Source: Deltaproteobacteria bacterium
GTDB lineage: Bacteria; Desulfobacterota; Syntrophobacteria; Syntrophobacterales; Thermodesulforhabdaceae
Direction: 5' to 3'
Assembly (NCBI GenBank): GCA_019309115.1
Contig: JAFDGW010000017.1
Coordinates: forward strand, 1 to 64,000
Length of the DNA: 64,000 bases
Below are positions 5,499 through 35,296 of this stretch, piece by piece. A program made the translations under genes and the position numbers. Within the stretch, counting starts at the first letter, position 1. Each line of letters opens with the position of its first letter. The notes below the pieces were generated by a model that was not told the origin of the DNA, ran no database searches, and saw only the letters and a list, made by a program, of their open reading frames with translations.

Positions 5499-6842
5499 CG
5501 AGCCAACACCTGAGCTTGTGTATCCTACCATGTTGTCGTATTTCCAGAGTCCGTGAGCAAAACGTCTGCCGGTACGGCTATGAGTAAAAACGGGTCCAAT
5601 GCGAGGAATTTGAATCTGGCCCGCATGGGTATGCCCGCAAATGTAGAGGTCAATTCCCATCCGTGCAGCTTCTCTGTATACTTCTGGCGAATGGGAAACT
5701 AGTATTGTGAAAGTGCCTTTCGGTATTCCTTGAATAGCCTTAGCTATGTCGTGGCATTTGTAATAATGAGGATCGTCAATTCCAGCGATGGCAATTTTTG
5801 ATGCTCCTCGAGAAATTATACTATGATCGTTTATAAGAAAAATAATTCCGTGGGCTTCCAGTTCAAAGGCCATTTCAATGCAGTCGTGGTTTCCAAGCAC
5901 GGCTAATACGCCATTTTTGCTTCGAGACTTTAAAACTGGAGCAAGCTTGACCATTCTGGAAAGTGCCTCCCAGGGAGTGCCAACAGTGTCGAAGCGGTAA
6001 TCGCCGCCTAGTACAACCAGATCGGCGGGAGTAGTTTTCCGCAGTACTTCTGCAAGCCGGCTGGACAATGCTTCGTGAGCGTCTATGTGCAGGTCAGACA
6101 TGAATAGGATTTCGTAGCCGTCAAAATCCGCTGGCAGGTGGGGAAACCAGACTTCTACTACCCGTTCCTTAATTACAAGAGCATTTCGTATGCCAATTTC
6201 GTACAAGCCCGTCACGCGAAGTATGCCATAAAGAACAAGGTGATAGTATATTGCATCTTCGAAGTTTAATAGTCTGCTAAAGGCATTATGATAAGGTTGG
6301 CAGGATTTCCATTCTCTCAGTCGTGTCCGTGGCGTCAACGGCCGTGGATATTTGGGAGATGGTGGGTTAAGTATTGTTTTTTTGAAAAATATGGAACCCT
6401 GGTATGCGCCAGCAATAAAGAAAACCGTTGCACATATGAGCCATTTCCAGCTCATTTGCTCCAGGTGTTTCCAGTACAGCAAGGGAAGGAAGGACTCAAA
6501 AAACTGATCAATTCCGAAAACAACGGTTCCGCTAGGTAGATTCAAGCGCCTTTTAAAAAAACTGGTTATGAGATCCCCAAACATGGCCAGGCTACCCATT
6601 ATGGTGCCTTCAATTGTGGAAAAGCTAAACATAGGTGCACTAACAGCTGCACCACATAGGGCACCTATTACGCCCCTGATGGTTTTGTGGTTTCCCAACC
6701 AAGGTTTTCCGTCCGGAAATGTTCTGTGTTTGTCAAGCGGTGTGTCCCACCGGTTATTTAGGAGCACTGCTAGGAAGGGCGGAATGAAGTTGATAAGCCA
6801 CAGAAAGACCACGATGTTCAGTGTTGCGATGAGGTTCTTCAT
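5415..6842 (-). CDS. fusion of CDP-archaeol-synthase-like membrane domain and metallophosphoesterase
   Basis: This 475-residue protein has two parts. Residues 1-160 are hydrophobic and carry the motifs of the CarS/DUF46 (CDP-archaeol synthase-like) family: DKHRTFPDGKPWLGNHKTIRG-type sequence at 38-58 and GDLITSFFKRR at 89-99 with a following DQFFE. Residues 240-475 are a calcineurin-like metallophosphoesterase of the YkuE type, with SDLH (249-252), GGDY (279-282), GNHD (317-320), a SHSPE motif and CGHTHAGQ. The first domain is known for transferring CMP to a lipid alcohol, the second for hydrolysing phosphoesters, for example in lipid A synthesis (LpxG/LpxH-like). A membrane-lipid role is inferred. 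It starts 7 nt after the exchanger gene, in one operon. Confidence 0.82.
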   Translation of the reverse strand: MKNLIATLNIVVFLWLINFIPPFLAVLLNNRWDTPLDKHRTFPDGKPWLGNHKTIRGVIGALCGAAVSAPMFSFSTIEGTIMGSLAMFGDLITSFFKRRLNLPSGTVVFGIDQFFESFLPLLYWKHLEQMSWKWLICATVFFIAGAYQGSIFFKKTILNPPSPKYPRPLTPRTRLREWKSCQPYHNAFSRLLNFEDAIYYHLVLYGILRVTGLYEIGIRNALVIKERVVEVWFPHLPADFDGYEILFMSDLHIDAHEALSSRLAEVLRKTTPADLVVLGGDYRFDTVGTPWEALSRMVKLAPVLKSRSKNGVLAVLGNHDCIEMAFELEAHGIIFLINDHSIISRGASKIAIAGIDDPHYYKCHDIAKAIQGIPKGTFTILVSHSPEVYREAARMGIDLYICGHTHAGQIQIPRIGPVFTHSRTGRRFAHGLWKYDNMVGYTSSGVGSSSIFTRFGASPEIVRIRLRRKDHLRTP

Positions 6843-20059: not shown

Positions 20060-21313
20060 AAGCGAAAGCGAAACCTTGGAGTTCAAGCGCCAGTGGACGG
20101 ACAAAGCCTTGGAAGACCTGGCCGCTTTTGCCAATACCGATGGAGGGACGCTTCTCATAGGCATTCGTGAAGATGGCGAAATTGTCGGAACGCAGTCGGA
20201 CGATAAGGAGCTGCAGCGCATTGCGAATCTAATTGCTTCTCATCTAGGTATAACACCCTCGTCGTGTGGGCACCACTAATCGAGACTTTGCCCCGAATGA
20301 GCTTGCCCGTCACATTCTGAACCGTTCCGGTCGTCATTGGGATGACCTTCCCAGTGAATGGGGCCTGAAGGAAGCGAATAAAGAGACCGTGGCCTATTTT
20401 GCCCGCCTTGCCCGGAACAGGCTTCCACAGATTGATCCAGCTCAACCAGAGCGTGTACTGGAAAACCTTGGTCTTCTCAGCGAAGGTCGGCTTAAAAATG
20501 CAGGGGTCTTGCTCTTTGCCAAGCACCCCCAGCGCTTATTTCCTCTGGCGCAAGTACGGATCGGTATCTTTCGAGGGGATTATATTCTGGATAGTCACGA
20601 TTTTCAGGGTACGCTGTGGCAACAACTGGATGGTGCCGTTGATCGCTTCAGGCAGATACTCAAAGTGCGCTTTGACATTCAGGTGGAGAAACCTTCACTG
20701 GAGGGGTTTCAACGCCGGGAAGTCTGGGAATACCCATTAGAAGCCCTACGGGAAGCTGTGGCAAACGCGCTAATCCATCGCGACTACACTTATCCGGCAG
20801 ACATTCAGATTCGGATAGAAGAAGACCACCTTGAGGTTTGGAGCCCGGGTGAACTACCTCCACCTCTTACGCCAGAAGCCCTTTACAGACCTCATCCCTC
20901 GGTACTGCGCAACCCCCTCATCGCACAGGCCTTCTACTTTGCTGGCATCATTGAACGCTGGGGAACGGGCACCACGCGCATCATTGATGTAGGGGCGGGT
21001 TCTGAACCCGCCCCTACCACCAAACGCCACGGTCTGTATCCAGCCTTCAACAACTGGCAGGGCGGAGCAACTGCGCAAGATAGGACTGAATGAACGGCAG
21101 ATCAAGGCAGTTCTGTATGTAAAGGAACACGGGCAAATCGGCAACAAAGAGTACCAGGAACTCACAGGTGTTAAAGAGCGCACGGCTACATCAGAGCTTG
21201 GGGATCTTGTTAAAAAAGGAATTCTGATAAGGGTAGGAACGACGGGACGAGGGACCCGTTATGCCGCAAGAAAGGCGCAAAAGCCGCAAGAAAGGCGCAG
21301 TAATGGAGCATAA
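20043..21313 (+). pseudogene. AlbA_2/RecG-like ATP-binding regulator, broken at two points
   Basis: The gene encodes an AlbA_2 domain (LEFKRQWTDKALEDLAAFANTDGGTLLIGI) followed by a GHKL-like ATPase_c_4 region (ALREAVANALIHRDY, ERWGTGTTRII) and a winged helix (GLNERQIKAVLYVKEHG). It is split near 20260, where the sequence stops at SSCGHH and resumes in another frame as VGTTNRDF, losing about 25 residues. It is split again near 21065, where WQGG leads to a stop while the winged helix continues in another frame to TAA 21311-21313. A palindromic repeat is also inserted in-frame. Such genes often accompany type I restriction systems. Confidence 0.75.
20989..21017. repeat. 29-bp palindromic element, copy 1, inside a coding frame
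   Basis: A perfect palindrome beginning GTAGGGGCGGGTTC and mirrored after the central T. Within the host gene it reads as VGAGSEPAPT. The same element with one changed base lies in trpF at 26712-26740 and gives the same peptide. Confidence 0.85.
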
Positions 21314-24489: not shown

Positions 24490-25299
24490 TTAGCGATGTT
24501 GTGCTTGCTTGTAGGCTTTAACCTGTTTTTCTAGTTGTTCCAGGAGCTCATCGGATTTTCCAAATTTTTCTATGGTCCTCACAAAGGCACTTCCGATGAC
24601 TATTCCATCTGCAATAGCCGAAATCTTTCTCACCTGCTCTGGTTCAGATATTCCAAAACCCACACAAACGGGAAGATTAGTATAAACTTTGACCGACTGA
24701 ACCATTGAAGATATTTCATCATAATCAAGACCTTTACTGCCAGTAACTCCCGTTTTTGAAATGAGGTAAATGAAACCAGAAGCATCTCTCACGATGGCTT
24801 CTATACGTTCCGGTGGAGTCGTTGGCGCAATCAACCTGATGAAGTCAATTTCGTTGCCGCTCCACTGTACCAGAAACTCATGTGCTTCTTCGGGCGGAAG
24901 ATCTACGACAAGAATGCCATCAACACCGGCATCTACCAAAGATTCGTACAGTTTTCCTGCACCGAACCTGAATAGTGGATTGTAATAACTAAACAAAACC
25001 AGAGGAATATTTGTTTGTTTTTTTACGGATCGAGCCAGCTGAATAACATCTCTAAGGGTGGTTCCGCTCCGTAATGACCTCATAGATGCCCGCTGTATTA
25101 CCGGTCCATCGGCTGTTGGATCCGAAAATGGAACTCCCAGTTCAATTATGTCAACGCCGGCTCTTGCCAGCGTGAGAACTATTTCCAAAGAAAATTCCAG
25201 ATCAGGATCACCGGCGGTAACGAAACCAACCAGTGCTTTCTCGGTTTTGTTGTTCCTTAGTTTTTCGAATTTTCGACCTATTTCACTCATCCTTTCCAT
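24490..25299 (-). CDS. trpA: tryptophan synthase alpha subunit
   Basis: A 269-residue TIM barrel that cleaves indole-3-glycerol phosphate to indole and glyceraldehyde-3-phosphate, feeding the beta subunit through the shared tunnel. Visible motifs are [18 protein letters not shown] (catalytic Glu and Asp loop) and the phosphate-binding [11 protein letters not shown]. It is the last gene of the operon and overlaps trpB by 17 bp. The ATG at 25290 (GATGAGTG) may be the true start since AAGGGAG is better spaced from it. Confidence 0.93.
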
Positions 25300-26509: not shown

Positions 26510-27193
26510 TTATTTTTGCTTTTCAAGTTCTTTAAGGCTTTCTAACAAGAGCCTTACTTTTTCGAGGTCTTTTTTCCCAGGTTCTTTTTCCACACCACTG
26601 CTCAAATCTATACCGTCCGGTCTGGCGGAGCGAACGGCTTCGACCACATTGTCAGGGGTCAGTCCACCGGCAAGTATAATGGGAACAGAAGCAGGGTTGT
26701 GAACCTTGTTAGTAGGGGCGGGTTCTGAACCTGCCCCTACTTCTGCCACTTCACCCCAGTTCCAGATTCTACCGGTTCCGCCGTAGCCGTGTTTTCCGCT
26801 TTCAAAAAGCGCCATGGAACAACTATAGCGGGGCAAGTCGGCAAATGAAGGCTTCTTTCGGGCAAAAAAAGCCTTGCAGACGGTAAGAGCTTCTTTTTCC
26901 AGCCGTTGAGTCCAGTCCGGAGGTTCATTACCATGAAGCTGAGCCACATGTATGCCGGTGCTATCTCGAATACGCAGTATTTCTTCAGGCGTCAGGTTCA
27001 CGAAGACGCCAAAGCACCTAACATGATCGTTAATTTCCCGTATTATTTCTGCTGCTCGACCTGGAGTAATATACCTCGGGCTTTTTTCGTAAAAGACGAA
27101 GCCTATGGCATCGACTCCCAGCTTTGCGCAGCCCAGTGCGTCGTCCATGTTTGTTATGCCGCAAATCTTTACGAATAGACTATTTGCCGCCAT
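26510..27193 (-). CDS. trpF: phosphoribosylanthranilate isomerase with in-frame palindromic insertion
   Basis: A 227-residue TIM barrel for the Amadori step of tryptophan synthesis. The catalytic Cys is in VKICGIT (residue 11); the family motifs LHGNE, GGTGRIWNW and ILAGGLTPDNV are all present, as is VDLSSGVE-like GIDLSSGVEKEPGKKD. Usual length is about 205-215; the extra residues are about 151-168, where a 29-bp palindrome encodes VGAGSEPAPT just before the ILAGGL strand. The frame is kept, so the enzyme may still work. It overlaps trpC by 14 bp. Confidence 0.93.
   Translation of the reverse strand: MAANSLFVKICGITNMDDALGCAKLGVDAIGFVFYEKSPRYITPGRAAEIIREINDHVRCFGVFVNLTPEEILRIRDSTGIHVAQLHGNEPPDWTQRLEKEALTVCKAFFARKKPSFADLPRYSCSMALFESGKHGYGGTGRIWNWGEVAEVGAGSEPAPTNKVHNPASVPIILAGGLTPDNVVEAVRSARPDGIDLSSGVEKEPGKKDLEKVRLLLESLKELEKQK
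26712..26740. repeat. 29-bp palindromic element, copy 2, inside trpF
   Basis: Begins GTAGGGGCGGGTTC and ends GAACCTGCCCCTAC: one base differs from the perfect copy at 20989-21017. On the coding strand of trpF it gives VGAGSEPAPT, the same peptide as the other copy although the two host genes lie on opposite strands. That is expected of a palindrome in matching frame. Confidence 0.88.
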
Positions 27194-29658: not shown

Positions 29659-31140
29659 TTACCCTTTCCGCCCTGTAAGCATCTTTATTGCTTGTTCCAT
29701 TGCCTTTGCCTTGTGGAGTGTCTCAAGCCGTTCCCGATGAGGATCCGAGTCCGCGACTATGCCAGCTCCAGCCTGGACCGCCACAGTGCCGTTTTCCACC
29801 ACAGCGGTTCGTATGGTGATAGCCATATCGAGATTGCCTTGGAACGAAACGTAACCCACGCATCCCCCGTATGGGCCTCTAGGCCTTCTCTCCAGCTCTG
29901 CAATAATCTGCATGGCACGGACCTTGGGCGCCCCGGTCAGGGTTCCCGCGGGAAATGTGGCTCTGATGACGTCCCAGGCGTCCAGTCCCTTCCTTAAGTG
30001 TGCCTGCACGTGGGAGACCAGGTGCATTACATGCGAGTAACGTTCGATGGTCATGTATTCCGTAACCTGCACGGAACCAACTTCTGCAACGCGCCCAAGA
30101 TCGTTCCTTCCCAGATCAACCAGCATTATGTGTTCGGCCCGTTCTTTTTCGTCTTTCAAGAGCTCGTTGGCCCTTTTTCTGTCTTCCTGCTCCGTAAATC
30201 CACGAGGTCTAGTGCCTGCTATAGGCCGAAGGGATACTATTCCGTTTTCGAGCCTCACCATGGTTTCCGGAGATGACCCCACAAGCGTTAACGTTCCCAG
30301 TTTACAGAAGAAAAGGTAGGGAGATGGATTTATGTATCGCTGTATCCTGTAAAGCGCCCAGGGATCAAGATTACAACCGGCCCGAAAAGGCTGAGACAGT
30401 ACTATTTGAATAGCCTCTCCATCGCGTATGTACTCTTTTGCCTTCCGGACCATGTCTTCAAAATCATCTGGAGAAACTGCTGGCTGCAACAAAATTTCAT
30501 TATGGGATTGCCAGTTAAACAGGATGATGTCAGGCTTCGGGGCGTTCAGAAGTTCTTCCAGGTTATCAAGCCTTCTTTGCACCTCGTCGAATGTACAGGG
30601 CGATTCCTGATAGGCTATGGAAAGAAGCGTTACGGTGTGGTTCCGATGATCGAAAATCATTGTATCGCGTGGAATTACGAACCTGGCCAGGGGATTTTCC
30701 TGAGGCAAAAGATTCGGAATAGGCTCGAAAAATGAGGCCATTTCGTAGCACATGTAACCCACAAGTCCTCCCCAGAAACGTGGAAGTCTCTGCACACTAG
30801 GAGCTACGTAACGGGACATGATTTTCCGTAGAATGCCCAGAGGATTTCCGTCGTGATGATAGATTTCCCGAGGTTTTCTGTCGGTAAAGTCTATTTCCAC
30901 CCTGTTTCTAAACACCGTTACATGGGCGTATGGTGATATTCCCAGAAAACTGTACCTGCCCCATCGCTCACCCCCTTCCACACTTTCCAGAAGAAATATG
31001 CCTTCCTGTTCCTTTATTTTTCCAAGCACTGAAACGGGGCTTTCCAGATCGTAAAGCACCGTTCGAAAGCAGGGAATAACGCTATAACTGTTTGATAATT
31101 CAGAAAATAAACTTCTGTCTGGAAATCCGCTTATAAGCAT
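29659..31140 (-). CDS. trpE: anthranilate synthase component I
   Basis: A 493-residue chorismate-using enzyme. The N-terminal LLESVEGGE element is part of the tryptophan feedback-binding site. The catalytic half has SSPETMVRLENG, RPIAGTRPRG, LVDLGRNDLGRVAEVGSV and TLTGAPKVRAMQII. So the pathway is likely to be inhibited by tryptophan at the protein level as well as by attenuation. It overlaps the DAHP synthase gene by 10 bp. Confidence 0.95.
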   Translation of the reverse strand: MLISGFPDRSLFSELSNSYSVIPCFRTVLYDLESPVSVLGKIKEQEGIFLLESVEGGERWGRYSFLGISPYAHVTVFRNRVEIDFTDRKPREIYHHDGNPLGILRKIMSRYVAPSVQRLPRFWGGLVGYMCYEMASFFEPIPNLLPQENPLARFVIPRDTMIFDHRNHTVTLLSIAYQESPCTFDEVQRRLDNLEELLNAPKPDIILFNWQSHNEILLQPAVSPDDFEDMVRKAKEYIRDGEAIQIVLSQPFRAGCNLDPWALYRIQRYINPSPYLFFCKLGTLTLVGSSPETMVRLENGIVSLRPIAGTRPRGFTEQEDRKRANELLKDEKERAEHIMLVDLGRNDLGRVAEVGSVQVTEYMTIERYSHVMHLVSHVQAHLRKGLDAWDVIRATFPAGTLTGAPKVRAMQIIAELERRPRGPYGGCVGYVSFQGNLDMAITIRTAVVENGTVAVQAGAGIVADSDPHRERLETLHKAKAMEQAIKMLTGRKG

Positions 31141-32156
31141 TTTCCAAGCTCCTTCACGATATTTGCTATGTGTTTCACTTCGTAAGCGAGTTGGCCAAAT
31201 TCTTCGGGCGTAATGGACTGTTGCCCGTCACTCAGGGCCTTTTCCGGTTTAGAGTGAACTTCCACCATTATGCCGTTGGCTCCGACTGCACATGCAGCTT
31301 TGCTGAGGGGAATTACCTGCTCGCGTCTGCCCGATGCGTGACTCGGATCCACGATAACCGGTAAATGAGTCTCCTGCAGGAGGAACAGAACGGCTGACAG
31401 ATCAAGTGTATTTCTACTGTGGTTGCAAAAGGTTCGAATACCTCGTTCGCAAAGTATTACCTTTGGGTTTCCTTCATTTACTATGTATTCTGCTGACATG
31501 AGCCATTCTTCGACGGTTGCCGCCATGCCTCTTTTGAGAATAACTGGTTTGGTCGAACGCCCGGCACGCCTCAGGAGCGAAAAATTCTGCATATTTCGTG
31601 TGCCTATCTGAACAATATCGCAGTATTCTTCGACGATGTCATAAACGGTGTGGTCAATAGCTTCTGAGACAATAGGTAGGCCGACTTTTTCGCGAACCCT
31701 AGCGAGTATCTTCAGCCCTTTTTCTCCTAGCCCTTGGAAAGAATATGGTGAGGTTCGAGGTTTGTAAGCTCCGCCACGAAACATGTGAGCACCTGCGGCT
31801 CGAACCTTTTCTGCAATATCCAGCGTTAGCGCTTCATCTTCAACGGCACAGGGACCGGCGATTATTGCAAATGTGTCGTCACCAATTTTGATGTCTTCTG
31901 AAATGGGTATAACGCTGCTTTCGGATTGAAATTCTCTGCTTACCAGTTTGTAAGGCCTGGTAACAGGAATCGCCTCTTTTACACCAGGCATGGCAATAAA
32001 AGGAGATGGATCAAGGGCGCCTTCGTTCCCGACTATTCCTATGGCTGTTCTGTCGCTGCCTGGGACCGGGCGAGCTTCGTAACCGAGTTCATGAATCCTG
32101 GCTACGACCTGTTCGATTTGGTCGTCGGTGGCATCGTTTTTCATGACCACTAACAT
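31131..32156 (-). CDS. aroF: 3-deoxy-7-phosphoheptulonate synthase, type I-beta
   Basis: A 341-residue DAHP synthase that joins phosphoenolpyruvate and erythrose-4-phosphate. It has an N-terminal ferredoxin-like regulatory domain (about 1-70, MLVVMKNDATDDQIEQV) and a KDO8P-like barrel with IAGPCAVE, RGGAYKPRTSPYSFQG, QIGTRNMQNF and DPSHASGRR. Being first in the trp operon, this isozyme is probably tied to tryptophan demand. It begins after two terminators and the leader peptide gene. Confidence 0.93.
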   Translation of the reverse strand: MLVVMKNDATDDQIEQVVARIHELGYEARPVPGSDRTAIGIVGNEGALDPSPFIAMPGVKEAIPVTRPYKLVSREFQSESSVIPISEDIKIGDDTFAIIAGPCAVEDEALTLDIAEKVRAAGAHMFRGGAYKPRTSPYSFQGLGEKGLKILARVREKVGLPIVSEAIDHTVYDIVEEYCDIVQIGTRNMQNFSLLRRAGRSTKPVILKRGMAATVEEWLMSAEYIVNEGNPKVILCERGIRTFCNHSRNTLDLSAVLFLLQETHLPVIVDPSHASGRREQVIPLSKAACAVGANGIMVEVHSKPEKALSDGQQSITPEEFGQLAYEVKHIANIVKELGKCL

Positions 32157-32193
32157 TTTTTCCCTCTCCTATACCCGAATGTTTCATAAAAGC

Positions 32194-32225
32194 AAAAAGG
32201 CCGTGGACTTATGCCCACGGCCTTT
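32194..32225 (-). terminator. trp leader terminator 2
   Basis: On the minus strand GGCCGTGGGC, loop ATAA, GTCCACGGCC, then TTTTT, about 40 nt before aroF. The stem reaches 11 bp with its AAA/TTT ends and one internal mismatch. Its 5' arm can also pair with the 3' arm of terminator 1 (8 bp, GCCGTGGG with CCCACGGC). Confidence 0.85.
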
Positions 32226-32235
32226 GCATGCAAAC

Positions 32236-32271
32236 AAAAAAGCCGTGGGAACCTGCCTGGGCTCCCACGGC
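32236..32271 (-). terminator. trp leader terminator 1
   Basis: On the minus strand GCCGTGGGA (32271 to 32263), a 12-nt loop, TCCCACGGC (32250 to 32242), then six T. Its 5' arm and loop contain GTGGGAGCCC, which is perfectly complementary over 10 bp to GGGCTCCCAC at the end of the leader peptide gene, the expected antiterminator. Confidence 0.88.
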
Positions 32272-32299
32272 CTTTAGTTTTTTATCTACTGGAGGCTAA

Positions 32300-32386
32300 T
32301 CACAGCCAGTGGGAGCCCCCTTTCCAGGCCCACCACCAGCACCAGTTTCTCATTGGCTTTGTGGGATTAAAATTTTCAAACTTCAT
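32300..32386 (-). CDS. trpL: trp operon leader peptide
   Basis: A 28-codon ORF with AGGAAA about 6 nt before its ATG. It contains six Trp codons, five clustered in NWCWWWAW (residues 14-21) and one just before the final Leu. It lies directly upstream of two terminators and the aroF-trpEGDCFBA operon. Ribosome stalling at the Trp run would leave codons 23-26 (GGGCTCCCAC) free to pair with the 5' arm of terminator 1 and allow read-through. When Trp-tRNA is plentiful, the ribosome reaches the stop, covers that segment, and terminator 1 forms. Too short for routine gene calling but very well supported. Confidence 0.93.
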   Translation of the reverse strand: MKFENFNPTKPMRNWCWWWAWKGGSHWL

Positions 32387-32430
32387 TTTTGCTTTCCTGT
32401 TTGTCTCGTGTTTGTTTCAAAGCAATCAAA

Positions 32431-32459
32431 AATAAACCATACCAACAGAGGCTTTGCAA
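32431..32459 (-). promoter_or_regulatory. possible trp operon promoter
   Basis: On the minus strand TTGCAA (32459 to 32454) and TTTATT (32436 to 32431) with a 17-nt spacer, about 40 nt upstream of the leader ATG. The -10 match is weak. No TrpR-type operator is evident. Confidence 0.35.
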
Positions 32460-32560
32460 GCATTTTATTGAGGGTGTTTCAAAAAACGGTGCATGTTTCC
32501 GCCATCACTGCCCGACGCAAAGAAGCACCCCCCAAAAGGTTACCGTTGCCTTTTTCCTAC

Positions 32561-35296
32561 TCACAGCTTCCTATTTCTGCTCAGATGAACATCCACTTCA
32601 ATGAGCTGTGGAGTCAGACGTAACGGCTTATGTTGCCTGACACCATCGGAGACAAGCCCCTTGCTCAACCTCGTGGCACTGAATTTCTCCCAACCGGAGC
32701 AATCGTCATCGTAACAAAATCTCCACCTTCCATGCATTTCGGATTTTCCAAGGGATGTAACTTCGTATTCGTAGTTAATTCCCTGCTCCGTAAACTCGAT
32801 TCGGTACAATAGACTCTTGCCATCGCCGATGGTGGCATTTACAAGCGTGCCAGTTCCCCATGTTCCGCTATAGCTAATACCATCGGCATTACGATTTAGA
32901 ACCAGCAGTCTGTCGGAACCATAAGTATAGGATTCTCCTTGATACTCTTCCGACACAAGCCAGGTTCCTTCCAGAGTGTATATATTAACCTGAACCTGCT
33001 GGACTTCCCTTGTAGAGTTTATGGAACTTCCGACCCTGACATTAACAAAAAGCTGTCCGTAAAGCCCTGCAAGCTGCATGGGACCAAAGTCGGCTTCAGG
33101 AATAGGGCCGACGCTGAAGAATGGGTCAAGAGAATTAACATCAGGGTTCAGAACACCGTTAGAGTAAACCAGCATAAACTGTTCGGGAACGACCGGTGTG
33201 TAGGCATAAACCTTACCTGGAGCCTTGGCCGGTGCGCTTAGCAGAACGTAAACCTTTTCGCTGGCACTGCAATAGGGGAGGCCATATCCGCTGGCGTTTC
33301 CTCCCGTGAATGGATCTATCCAGGTGCCTCCGGCGGTTAGACATGCTTCCTCACTGGAATAAGTGGTTACGTCATCTACATGCAAAAGCATGTGTAGCCA
33401 GTTAGCTTCGGTGGCCTCGACAAGAACAAAGCCCGGAGTCATTTGCAAAAGTCTTGGTGGATTGACCGGTAGAGATATCGGCTCTCCATGTCTTCGGATT
33501 TCCACCGTAACAGGTATTTCACGATAAAATTCGGTTCCCCTGTCAATTACCTGTATGGTGCCTTCGTATCTTCCAGGGCCGTACGCCCACAATAATGTTG
33601 CGTCAGGCGTCACCTCAAAGATGCCCTCCGATTCGTTCGTGGAAAGGCATTCGGGGCATTCCGAATCTCCGTTAACAAGAGTAATACTTAGCCATGGCAC
33701 GTTGTAGTTCAGAGAAAATCCGTAAGGCCCTGCGTACACATGGAGAACCTGAGTGGTGAAATCAGGAAGTGTATAATCTTCCGGCACATCTTCAGGAAGC
33801 TCCACACTCCAGAAGAGATACGATGGAAAAACACTCAGTTCGTTGGGGGCTTCGATTACCAGCCTGATCGTCAGAGTAGCTTCTGCATCTTCTGAGTTTT
33901 CTGTGGGAAGATTACTTCTAAAAGTAATAACACCGGCGTTGAATTCACACTCATCTGAGTTGCAATATTTACCGGCCGGGAGTGCCGACGGATCCACTGT
34001 TACAGTCACCGATGTCTTTCCAACTCCTGTCGAAGGGGATATTGTAATCCACGGTTCCGTAACCTCGGCACTCCATTTAAAGTCGTCCCTCGTGTAATTA
34101 GCATTGGCAACTTCTACGGTGAAGCTTCTTTGAATCAGATTAGCTCTTGTAAAGTACAGTGTAACCGAGCTTGGGGTTACCGTGAGTTTATCACGAATGG
34201 CGTGAATTACGGTAACGGTGACCGTAACAACAGCTTCGGTGTTGGTTATATCTCCTGTTTCTTTGATAACAACTTCCCCTGTGTAAACACCATCTTCCGG
34301 GAAAAACTCGTTGGAAACTGTGACTTTAAGCGTAAAGGAGCAAGGAAGTTGAGTAGCTTGACCCTCCTCGACGCCCTCAACTGATAACCAGGGTTGACTT
34401 GTGGAAATTACGGCGCTATCCCCACCGTCAACACTAATATTAAACGAATAGTCTCTGCTTTCCTGACCAGGGTAAAGGTAAGCTGTGAAAGAAATCTCGC
34501 TGGGACTTACCTCTAAGGCTCTCGTTCTTCCGGTGACACGCACAGTGACCGTAACAGTAGCTTCATTGGCTTCCTCGTTGTTTATGTTTCCTACTTCCCT
34601 AATAGTGAGCTTTCCTGTGTAAACTTTATCTTCCAGAAAAAACTCCTTGGAAACTGTGACCTTAAGGGTAAGAGAACAAGGAATTTGAATAGGCTGCCCT
34701 TCATCAACACCTTCAACTGATAACCAGGATTGATCAGTAGAGACTATAACATTGCTTCCTTCAGTACCAGTAACACTAACGTTAAATAAGTAATCTTTGC
34801 TTTCCTGACCAGGATACAGGTAAGCTGTGAAAGAAATCTCGCTGGGGTCTACTTCTAAAGCCTCTCCTCTTCCTGTAACATTCACAGTAATCGTAACAGT
34901 AGCTTCGTTGTCTTCATCTTCTCTGATAGTAAGCCTTCCTGTGTAAACCCCATCTTCTGGGAAAAATTCCTCGGAGACTATTACATTTAGGGTGAAGAAT
35001 TGGGGAATATTAATGACTCGTGTACCATCGGTACTGATTGTAAAATCACCTCCGAGTGATAACCAAGCCTCATCAGTGTAAACCACGGCTCTATTTTCCC
35101 CTTCCTCATCGCTGGTAACACTGATATTAAACGAATAAGTTCTACTCTCCTGGCCGGGATACAAATAGGCCGTGAAGGAAATCTCACTGGGGTTTACTTC
35201 TAAAGTTGCCGTTGCCTTTCCAGCAGCAACAAACACTGTTGCAAGGCAAACTATCAATCCCAGACCAACAACCGACAGCTTGTTCCTGGGTTTCAT
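32561..35296 (-). CDS. large secreted protein with tandem Ig-like (BACON-type) repeats
   Basis: A 911-residue protein with signal peptide (1-30, ending AGKATA). Three close repeats of about 110 residues follow (about 32-146, 147-260, 261-370), each opening LEVxPSEISFTAYLYPGQES and containing a WLS and a VYTG motif. A more divergent fourth unit (370-480) opens LTVTPSSVTLYF. This pattern is typical of BACON/Big-type beta-sandwich domains. The C-terminal 400 residues are not recognised; they hold two Cys-pair segments (ECPEC and CYDDDC). No anchor or sorting signal is visible. A surface or secreted adhesin/binding role is plausible only by analogy. It lies 25 bp downstream of the Dabb gene. Confidence 0.72.
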   Translation of the reverse strand: MKPRNKLSVVGLGLIVCLATVFVAAGKATATLEVNPSEISFTAYLYPGQESRTYSFNISVTSDEEGENRAVVYTDEAWLSLGGDFTISTDGTRVINIPQFFTLNVIVSEEFFPEDGVYTGRLTIREDEDNEATVTITVNVTGRGEALEVDPSEISFTAYLYPGQESKDYLFNVSVTGTEGSNVIVSTDQSWLSVEGVDEGQPIQIPCSLTLKVTVSKEFFLEDKVYTGKLTIREVGNINNEEANEATVTVTVRVTGRTRALEVSPSEISFTAYLYPGQESRDYSFNISVDGGDSAVISTSQPWLSVEGVEEGQATQLPCSFTLKVTVSNEFFPEDGVYTGEVVIKETGDITNTEAVVTVTVTVIHAIRDKLTVTPSSVTLYFTRANLIQRSFTVEVANANYTRDDFKWSAEVTEPWITISPSTGVGKTSVTVTVDPSALPAGKYCNSDECEFNAGVITFRSNLPTENSEDAEATLTIRLVIEAPNELSVFPSYLFWSVELPEDVPEDYTLPDFTTQVLHVYAGPYGFSLNYNVPWLSITLVNGDSECPECLSTNESEGIFEVTPDATLLWAYGPGRYEGTIQVIDRGTEFYREIPVTVEIRRHGEPISLPVNPPRLLQMTPGFVLVEATEANWLHMLLHVDDVTTYSSEEACLTAGGTWIDPFTGGNASGYGLPYCSASEKVYVLLSAPAKAPGKVYAYTPVVPEQFMLVYSNGVLNPDVNSLDPFFSVGPIPEADFGPMQLAGLYGQLFVNVRVGSSINSTREVQQVQVNIYTLEGTWLVSEEYQGESYTYGSDRLLVLNRNADGISYSGTWGTGTLVNATIGDGKSLLYRIEFTEQGINYEYEVTSLGKSEMHGRWRFCYDDDCSGWEKFSATRLSKGLVSDGVRQHKPLRLTPQLIEVDVHLSRNRKL

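Follow-up and report, generated by a model that had tools for sequence, protein, structure and literature searches.

A Trp leader peptide, two terminators and a pairing between them upstream of an aroF-trp operon in Desulfobacterota

The leader region of the aroF-trp operon

The window, by which we mean the whole 64,000-nucleotide stretch analysed, carries on its minus strand a complete operon in the order aroF-trpEGDCFBA. The first gene, aroF (31131..32156), encodes 3-deoxy-7-phosphoheptulonate (DAHP) synthase (NCBIfam NF006421, TIGR01361), and trpE, trpG, trpD, trpC, trpF, trpB and trpA follow on the same strand, tightly spaced or overlapping, from 31140 to the end of the operon at 24490. 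The assignment of trpF is by Pfam PRAI, while trpB and trpA were assigned from sequence alone. Within trpF, a 29-bp palindrome, GTAGGGGC(A/G)GGTTCAGAACCCGCCCCTAC, lies in frame (26712-26740) and adds VGAGSEPAPTNK before the conserved ILAGG stretch; a second copy is found at 20989-21017, in the ORF 20266-21093, and there are three copies genome-wide. The palindrome is evidently a small mobile element that tolerates insertion into coding sequence. On the other side of the operon, the gene upstream of the trp leader (32561-35296, minus strand) encodes a repeat protein of 911 residues, whose BACON-like matches are weak. The attenuator region itself (32386-32194, minus strand) consists of a leader peptide and then two intrinsic terminators, T1 and T2, before aroF.

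A ribosome-binding site, AGGAAAG (32392..32398, minus strand), stands 5' of the leader ORF (32300..32386, minus strand), which encodes the 28-codon peptide MKFENFNPTKPMRNWCWWWAWKGGSHWL. Six of its codons specify Trp (15, 17, 18, 19, 21 and 27), five of them within NWCWWWAW, and the coordinates confirm exactly what the initial annotation had given for this peptide. The region thus combines a ribosome-binding site with a short ORF in which codons for the amino acid that the operon makes are clustered, and a Trp-rich leader with such a run occupies the same position in 32 relatives. Trp27 lies 3' of segment A (described below), so that stalling at this codon would close the switch. In the minimum-energy fold, Trp codons 17-19 and the codon that follows (TGGTGGTGGGCC, 32327..32338, minus strand) pair with segment A, and we suggest that in an untranslated leader they could act as the 1:2 protector.

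Five segments, all on the minus strand, make up the alternative pairings. Segment A (GGGCTCCCAC, 32309..32318) spans leader codons 23-26, directly 3' of the Trp run but ahead of the leader stop, and is the 5' arm of antiterminator 1. It is a perfect 10-bp complement of segment B (GTGGGAGCCC, 32259..32268), whose partner would be A in an open state or segment C in a closed one. C (CCCACGGC, 32242..32249) is the 3' arm of T1 and could pair with B (closed) or D (open); D (GCCGTGGG, 32214..32221) is the 5' arm of T2 and could pair with C (open) or with E (closed), the T2 3' arm (32196..32208). The C:D match is a perfect 8-bp complement, and extends to 11 contiguous pairs when one neighbouring U.G pair and two U-A pairs are counted too. 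A, B, C and D lie exactly where they had been placed before, with the same lengths of complementarity. The T1 hairpin, with arms B and C, has 16 pairs (32238..32275) and a U-tract at 32236..32241; the T2 hairpin, with arms D and E, has 13 pairs (32196..32225) and a U-tract at 32194..32198. An intrinsic terminator therefore sits between the leader and the first gene, and T1 and T2 are the sole terminator-like sites on the minus strand in 32100-32600, where shuffled versions of this region average 0.8 such sites on both strands together. An Rfam scan of the attenuator matched no named family, the Trp leader included (the best score, 26.6 bits to ar35 against a gathering threshold of 45, is at chance level); the T-box covariance model gave no match there, and the leaders of six relatives likewise matched no Rfam family. 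The eight letters GCCGTGGG occur twice, in D and in the 5' arm of T1 itself, so the complementarity of C and D could be a by-product of stem-sharing and had to be tested.

Conservation of the pairings in relatives

The comparison set was chosen by protein, without using the RNA: AroF was searched in 98 relatives and the upstream DNA then examined. In 32 genomes a trp-type aroF is preceded by a leader with a Trp run (for example WWCWWW or WRWWW), and both T1 and T2 are present in 31 of them, G088 having one terminator. A scan of named genomes gave mostly distant AroF proteins; the one useful hit and closest named relative is Desulfosoma (L017; 68% identity), whose leader is identical to that of genome G011; this places the window in the order Syntrophobacterales or close to it.

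A:B can be drawn in all 31 leaders, between the final leader codons and the T1 5' arm plus loop. The two sides change together (GGGTG/CACCC, GGCGC/GCGCC, GGAGTG/CACTCC, GGGACTC/GAGTCCC), and A fits its own B better than the B of other genomes in 30 of 31 cases, so that the covariation proposed earlier as a check on A:B is present. When A was shuffled 300 times, no duplex with the B arm was as good as the best one formed by the leader codons downstream of the Trp run (p=0.003); taken leader by leader, the same test is significant in 21 of 31. Together with the presence of both terminators in nearly all Trp-leader relatives, this supports the initial reading of the region as a Trp attenuator with two terminators, and judged on the sequences, ribosome-sensing Trp attenuation of aroF-trpEGDCFBA is almost certain.

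The C:D check that had been proposed also came out in favour of the pairing. Across 30 distinct leaders, C:D is paired in 97.0% of 330 cells, with changes on both sides at four columns (C-G/U.G/U-A and G-C/G.U/A-U are examples). Its covariation score exceeds that of all 500 shuffles, and sliding the helix lowers pairing to 36-60%; the outermost pair is lost in one clade. As a mirror control we used B:E, since stems that were merely copied should give a B:E fit equal to that of C:D. B:E is paired in 85.5% of cells. The T2 stem itself, D:E, is paired in 94.8%, with both-side changes at seven pairs. In 22 cells D is mismatched with E, and in 21 of these it is still paired with C. When events are counted on the AroF tree with both own stems intact, C:D is kept while B:E is broken 12 times and the reverse occurs three times (p=0.035); without the intact-stem restriction the count is 24 to 3. 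From these tree events and the 21 cells we conclude that D is evidently held to C by something besides T2. The pairing of the T1 3' arm with the T2 5' arm is thus conserved beyond the needs of two hairpins, and in the compared sequences the leader, the two terminators, A:B and C:D are all seen to be conserved.

Folding order and rival explanations

The ribosome positions and the order of folding that we infer for the cell are as follows. With Trp-tRNA plentiful, the ribosome would reach the leader stop and mask A; B:C (T1) would form and most polymerases would halt. For polymerases that escape T1, C would be locked in T1, so that D:E (T2) would form and stop them there. With Trp-tRNA scarce, the ribosome would stall in NWCWWWAW, A:B would pair as it emerges, and C would be freed; the freed C would pair with D before E is transcribed, holding T2 open, and the polymerase would pass both sites.

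Folding values, all from a 37 C model with an assumed base rate and direct paths, bear on whether such an order is feasible. In the window, T1 has an energy of about -28.4 to -28.9 kcal/mol, the C:D hairpin -21.0 kcal/mol and T2 -23.9 kcal/mol; the means over the leaders are -27.7, -20.8 and -22.9 kcal/mol, respectively. With a ribosome on the WWW codons, A:B (-29.4 kcal/mol) is about equal to T1 (-28.9 kcal/mol), the barrier between them being 15.6 kcal/mol, and the three states of this leader lie within 3.2 kcal/mol of one another (A:B plus C:D, -50.1; A:B plus T2, -53.3; T1 plus T2, -52.8 kcal/mol). In the full-length transcript, however, the equilibrium prefers T1 plus T2 in every genome, whatever the ribosome position. 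The open state is consequently not an equilibrium state and depends on folding order, and we dropped equilibrium folding as proof of switching. As C:D and T2 are similar in energy, an opening of T2 would have to be kinetic. C:D in the window is 2.9 kcal/mol weaker than T2 but is formed before E exists; in the same way, A:B is available before C is transcribed. The barrier from C:D to T2 is 8.3 kcal/mol in the window (7.9-17.7 kcal/mol in relatives), which on the assumed base rate at 37 C and direct paths gives an exit rate from C:D of about 0.6 per s, near the time scale of the polymerase. For a transcript that reaches only to D, the model prefers A:B plus C:D in 19 of 31 genomes with the ribosome stalled versus 2 of 31 with the ribosome at the stop. 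The fold check suggested with the initial annotation is thus less clear-cut than the covariation: the modelled barriers make a kinetic open state (A:B plus C:D) plausible, but equilibrium never favours the open state at full length.

An alternative is that plain trp attenuation takes place at T1, that T2 is an independent back-up, and that C:D is a by-product of the shared GCCGTGGG stem, whether through copying or through a convergent preference. D does consist of the same eight letters as the 5' arm of T1, and C pairs fairly well with the D of other loci (-16.5 versus -18.4 for its own), such that the shared motif explains much. A by-product should nevertheless leave B:E as good as C:D, which the difference between 85.5% and 97.0% contradicts, and it should not make D follow C where it departs from E, as D does in 21 of 22 cells. 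A T2 that is permanently closed would, moreover, limit expression at any Trp supply, and GCCGTGGG hairpins are rare elsewhere in the genome (two perfect-stem sites). We therefore regard this explanation as unlikely. Still less probable, and in our judgement improbable by a wide measure, is that C:D serves mainly to keep T1 antiterminated by drawing C away from B, with "T2" a weak terminator. Before E is made, C:D does let A:B plus C:D beat T1 in 19 of 31 genomes, and the T2 U-tract is weak in G034 and G037; but by the time D is transcribed the decision at T1 has already been made, and a T2 stem that is so well paired (94.8%), with both-side changes at seven pairs and a U-tract in most relatives, does not look like a weak terminator.

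T1 and T2 might, finally, terminate transcription of the gene upstream (32561-35296), or work in both directions, without regulation. On the strand they share, the interval from that gene to the trp leader has no further terminator-like site, and the hairpins are nearly palindromic, a covariance model of T1 plus T2 weakly matching the plus strand too. Since T1 and T2 follow a Trp leader peptide in 31 relatives, and no plus-strand gene runs into them, we give this idea hardly any credence. We suggest instead that T1 and T2 are functionally coupled through C:D as terminators in series, a reading to which, from the sequences and the folding model, we assign a probability of roughly 0.7. The cascade by which one stalled ribosome would unlock both terminators, as originally proposed, is thus backed by the comparison (C:D against B:E) and is kinetically plausible, while the equilibrium folds, which favour T1 plus T2, speak against it.

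Should the coupling prove real, a single sensing event would set two terminators, with leakage in the closed state multiplied down (two 90% stops would leave 1%); no second sensor would be needed, and the open state would come without cost. Attenuation by RNA alone could then approach a repressor-like range, and synthetic control would gain a cascade element that is ready for use.

Other operons and known attenuators

The covariance model of T1 plus T2 was run over the class and over 247 genomes of the phylum, 85 of which had matches with E values no higher than 1e-5. For two sets of matches, 40 and 19 in number, the neighbouring DNA was inspected, and almost every match follows a short ORF dominated by a single kind of residue; gene names at these wider loci were read from N-terminal sequences, apart from the loci that the AroF search had found. 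The layout with T1 and T2 is seen before trpE (leader NWYWWWC), trpB (MWWWQAW), trpD (RWWWW), a gene whose sequence resembles phenylacetate-CoA ligase (FSFFFFSSFSF) and, in one case, an ilvB-like gene (VLIVV). Relatives also have a second DAHP synthase (L118-L124), with a Phe/Tyr-rich leader, GFYFYYGWY, and tandem terminators with perfect C:D. Substrate-binding genes of ABC transporters of the branched-chain amino-acid type (L125-L128, L138, L141, L142, L147, L148, L150) follow a Tyr-rich leader, YYYYGYLRRSAL, and tandem terminators, which suggests that these transporters may take up aromatic amino acids.

As the model itself carries the stem sequence, its matches were not counted as independent proof of C:D, for which we used the contrast of C:D with B:E and the set found through AroF. 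Over 90 loci, other operons included, C:D is the stronger duplex in 70 and B:E in 19 (Wilcoxon p=1.3e-9, relatedness uncorrected), and fits its own partner better than those of other loci in 68 of 90 (p=1.3e-8, relatedness again uncorrected). In the trpE group alone, C:D prevails over B:E by 13 to 0. There is little C:D in L161 and L163, and most trpB leaders have one mismatch.

The same genome (G000) holds GCCGTGGG hairpins with a perfect stem at two sites outside the trp leader, one of which is another amino-acid leader. On contig C65, at about 6400-6700 (L085 1380-1530), a short ORF, MNIKPAGKALKSDCFCFFR, is followed by hairpins, a GCCGTGGG terminator and an ABC substrate-binding gene. The ORF ends in DCFCFFR and looks like a Phe leader, and the element is probably a second aromatic attenuator of this genome. 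Contig C36 (38207-38232) carries a hairpin (GCCGTGGGAACCTCGGCTCCCACGGC) that is almost the same as T1, between response-regulator and potassium-transporter-like genes, where no leader peptide was noted. The idea that GCCGTGGG is the habitual terminator stem of the genome was rejected; few such hairpins exist genome-wide, and the one on C65 belongs to an amino-acid leader.

We lean slightly towards the view that chain attenuators of this kind are an RNA architecture found throughout the phylum Desulfobacterota (Thermodesulfobacteriota) and employed repeatedly, ahead of many amino-acid operons, with Trp, Phe/Tyr, Tyr and possibly branched-chain leaders, one stalled ribosome opening both terminators and so multiplying the range of control. 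A real coupling would also allow a regulon for aromatic amino-acid genes to be annotated in the phylum. The literature that we could search, with subscription papers, older proteobacterial attenuator surveys among them, outside its scope, yielded no account of tandem or coupled terminators behind leader peptides, none of terminators linked through the T1 3' arm and the T2 5' arm, and no description of leader-peptide control of aromatic amino-acid genes in this phylum. Two terminators coupled through C:D therefore appear to be new within that literature. The layout had been called less usual, which holds in so far as none is described there, but not within the phylum, where the chained two-terminator layout is the common form.

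Leader-peptide attenuation is a textbook mechanism. The E. coli trp leader resembles the present one in its Trp-rich peptide, its 1:2, 2:3 and 3:4 segments and the freeing of segment 2 by a stalled ribosome, the classic account of which is restated in PMC10989985. It differs in having a single terminator, whereas here the T1 3' arm doubles as the 5' strand of a second antiterminator that would control T2, and aroF comes first. The enteric his leader alternates hairpins AB, CD and EF with BC and DE, of which only EF is a terminator (PMC10989985). As here, a chain of mutually exclusive hairpins with every-other pairing relays the position of the ribosome down the RNA; unlike there, two hairpins of the present chain are U-tailed terminators. 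In some Gammaproteobacteria, the rimP-leader has a second terminator in tandem and a potential antiterminator at the upstream one, as in our case, but in the accessible part of that report neither an amino-acid leader peptide nor pairing between the terminators is described (PMC2965389). The mgtCBR leader of Salmonella contains two successive attenuating elements and short ORFs that sense ATP and proline independently and additively (PMC3641672); it therefore has two ORFs and two signals, compared to one ORF, one signal and, as we propose, coupled elements here. Tandem THI riboswitches in Desulfovibrio, each with its own terminator (PMC545781), likewise place two serial terminators before one operon in related bacteria. 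Each of those terminators, however, has its own ligand sensor, whereas in the aroF-trp leader only T1 would be sensed and T2 would follow.
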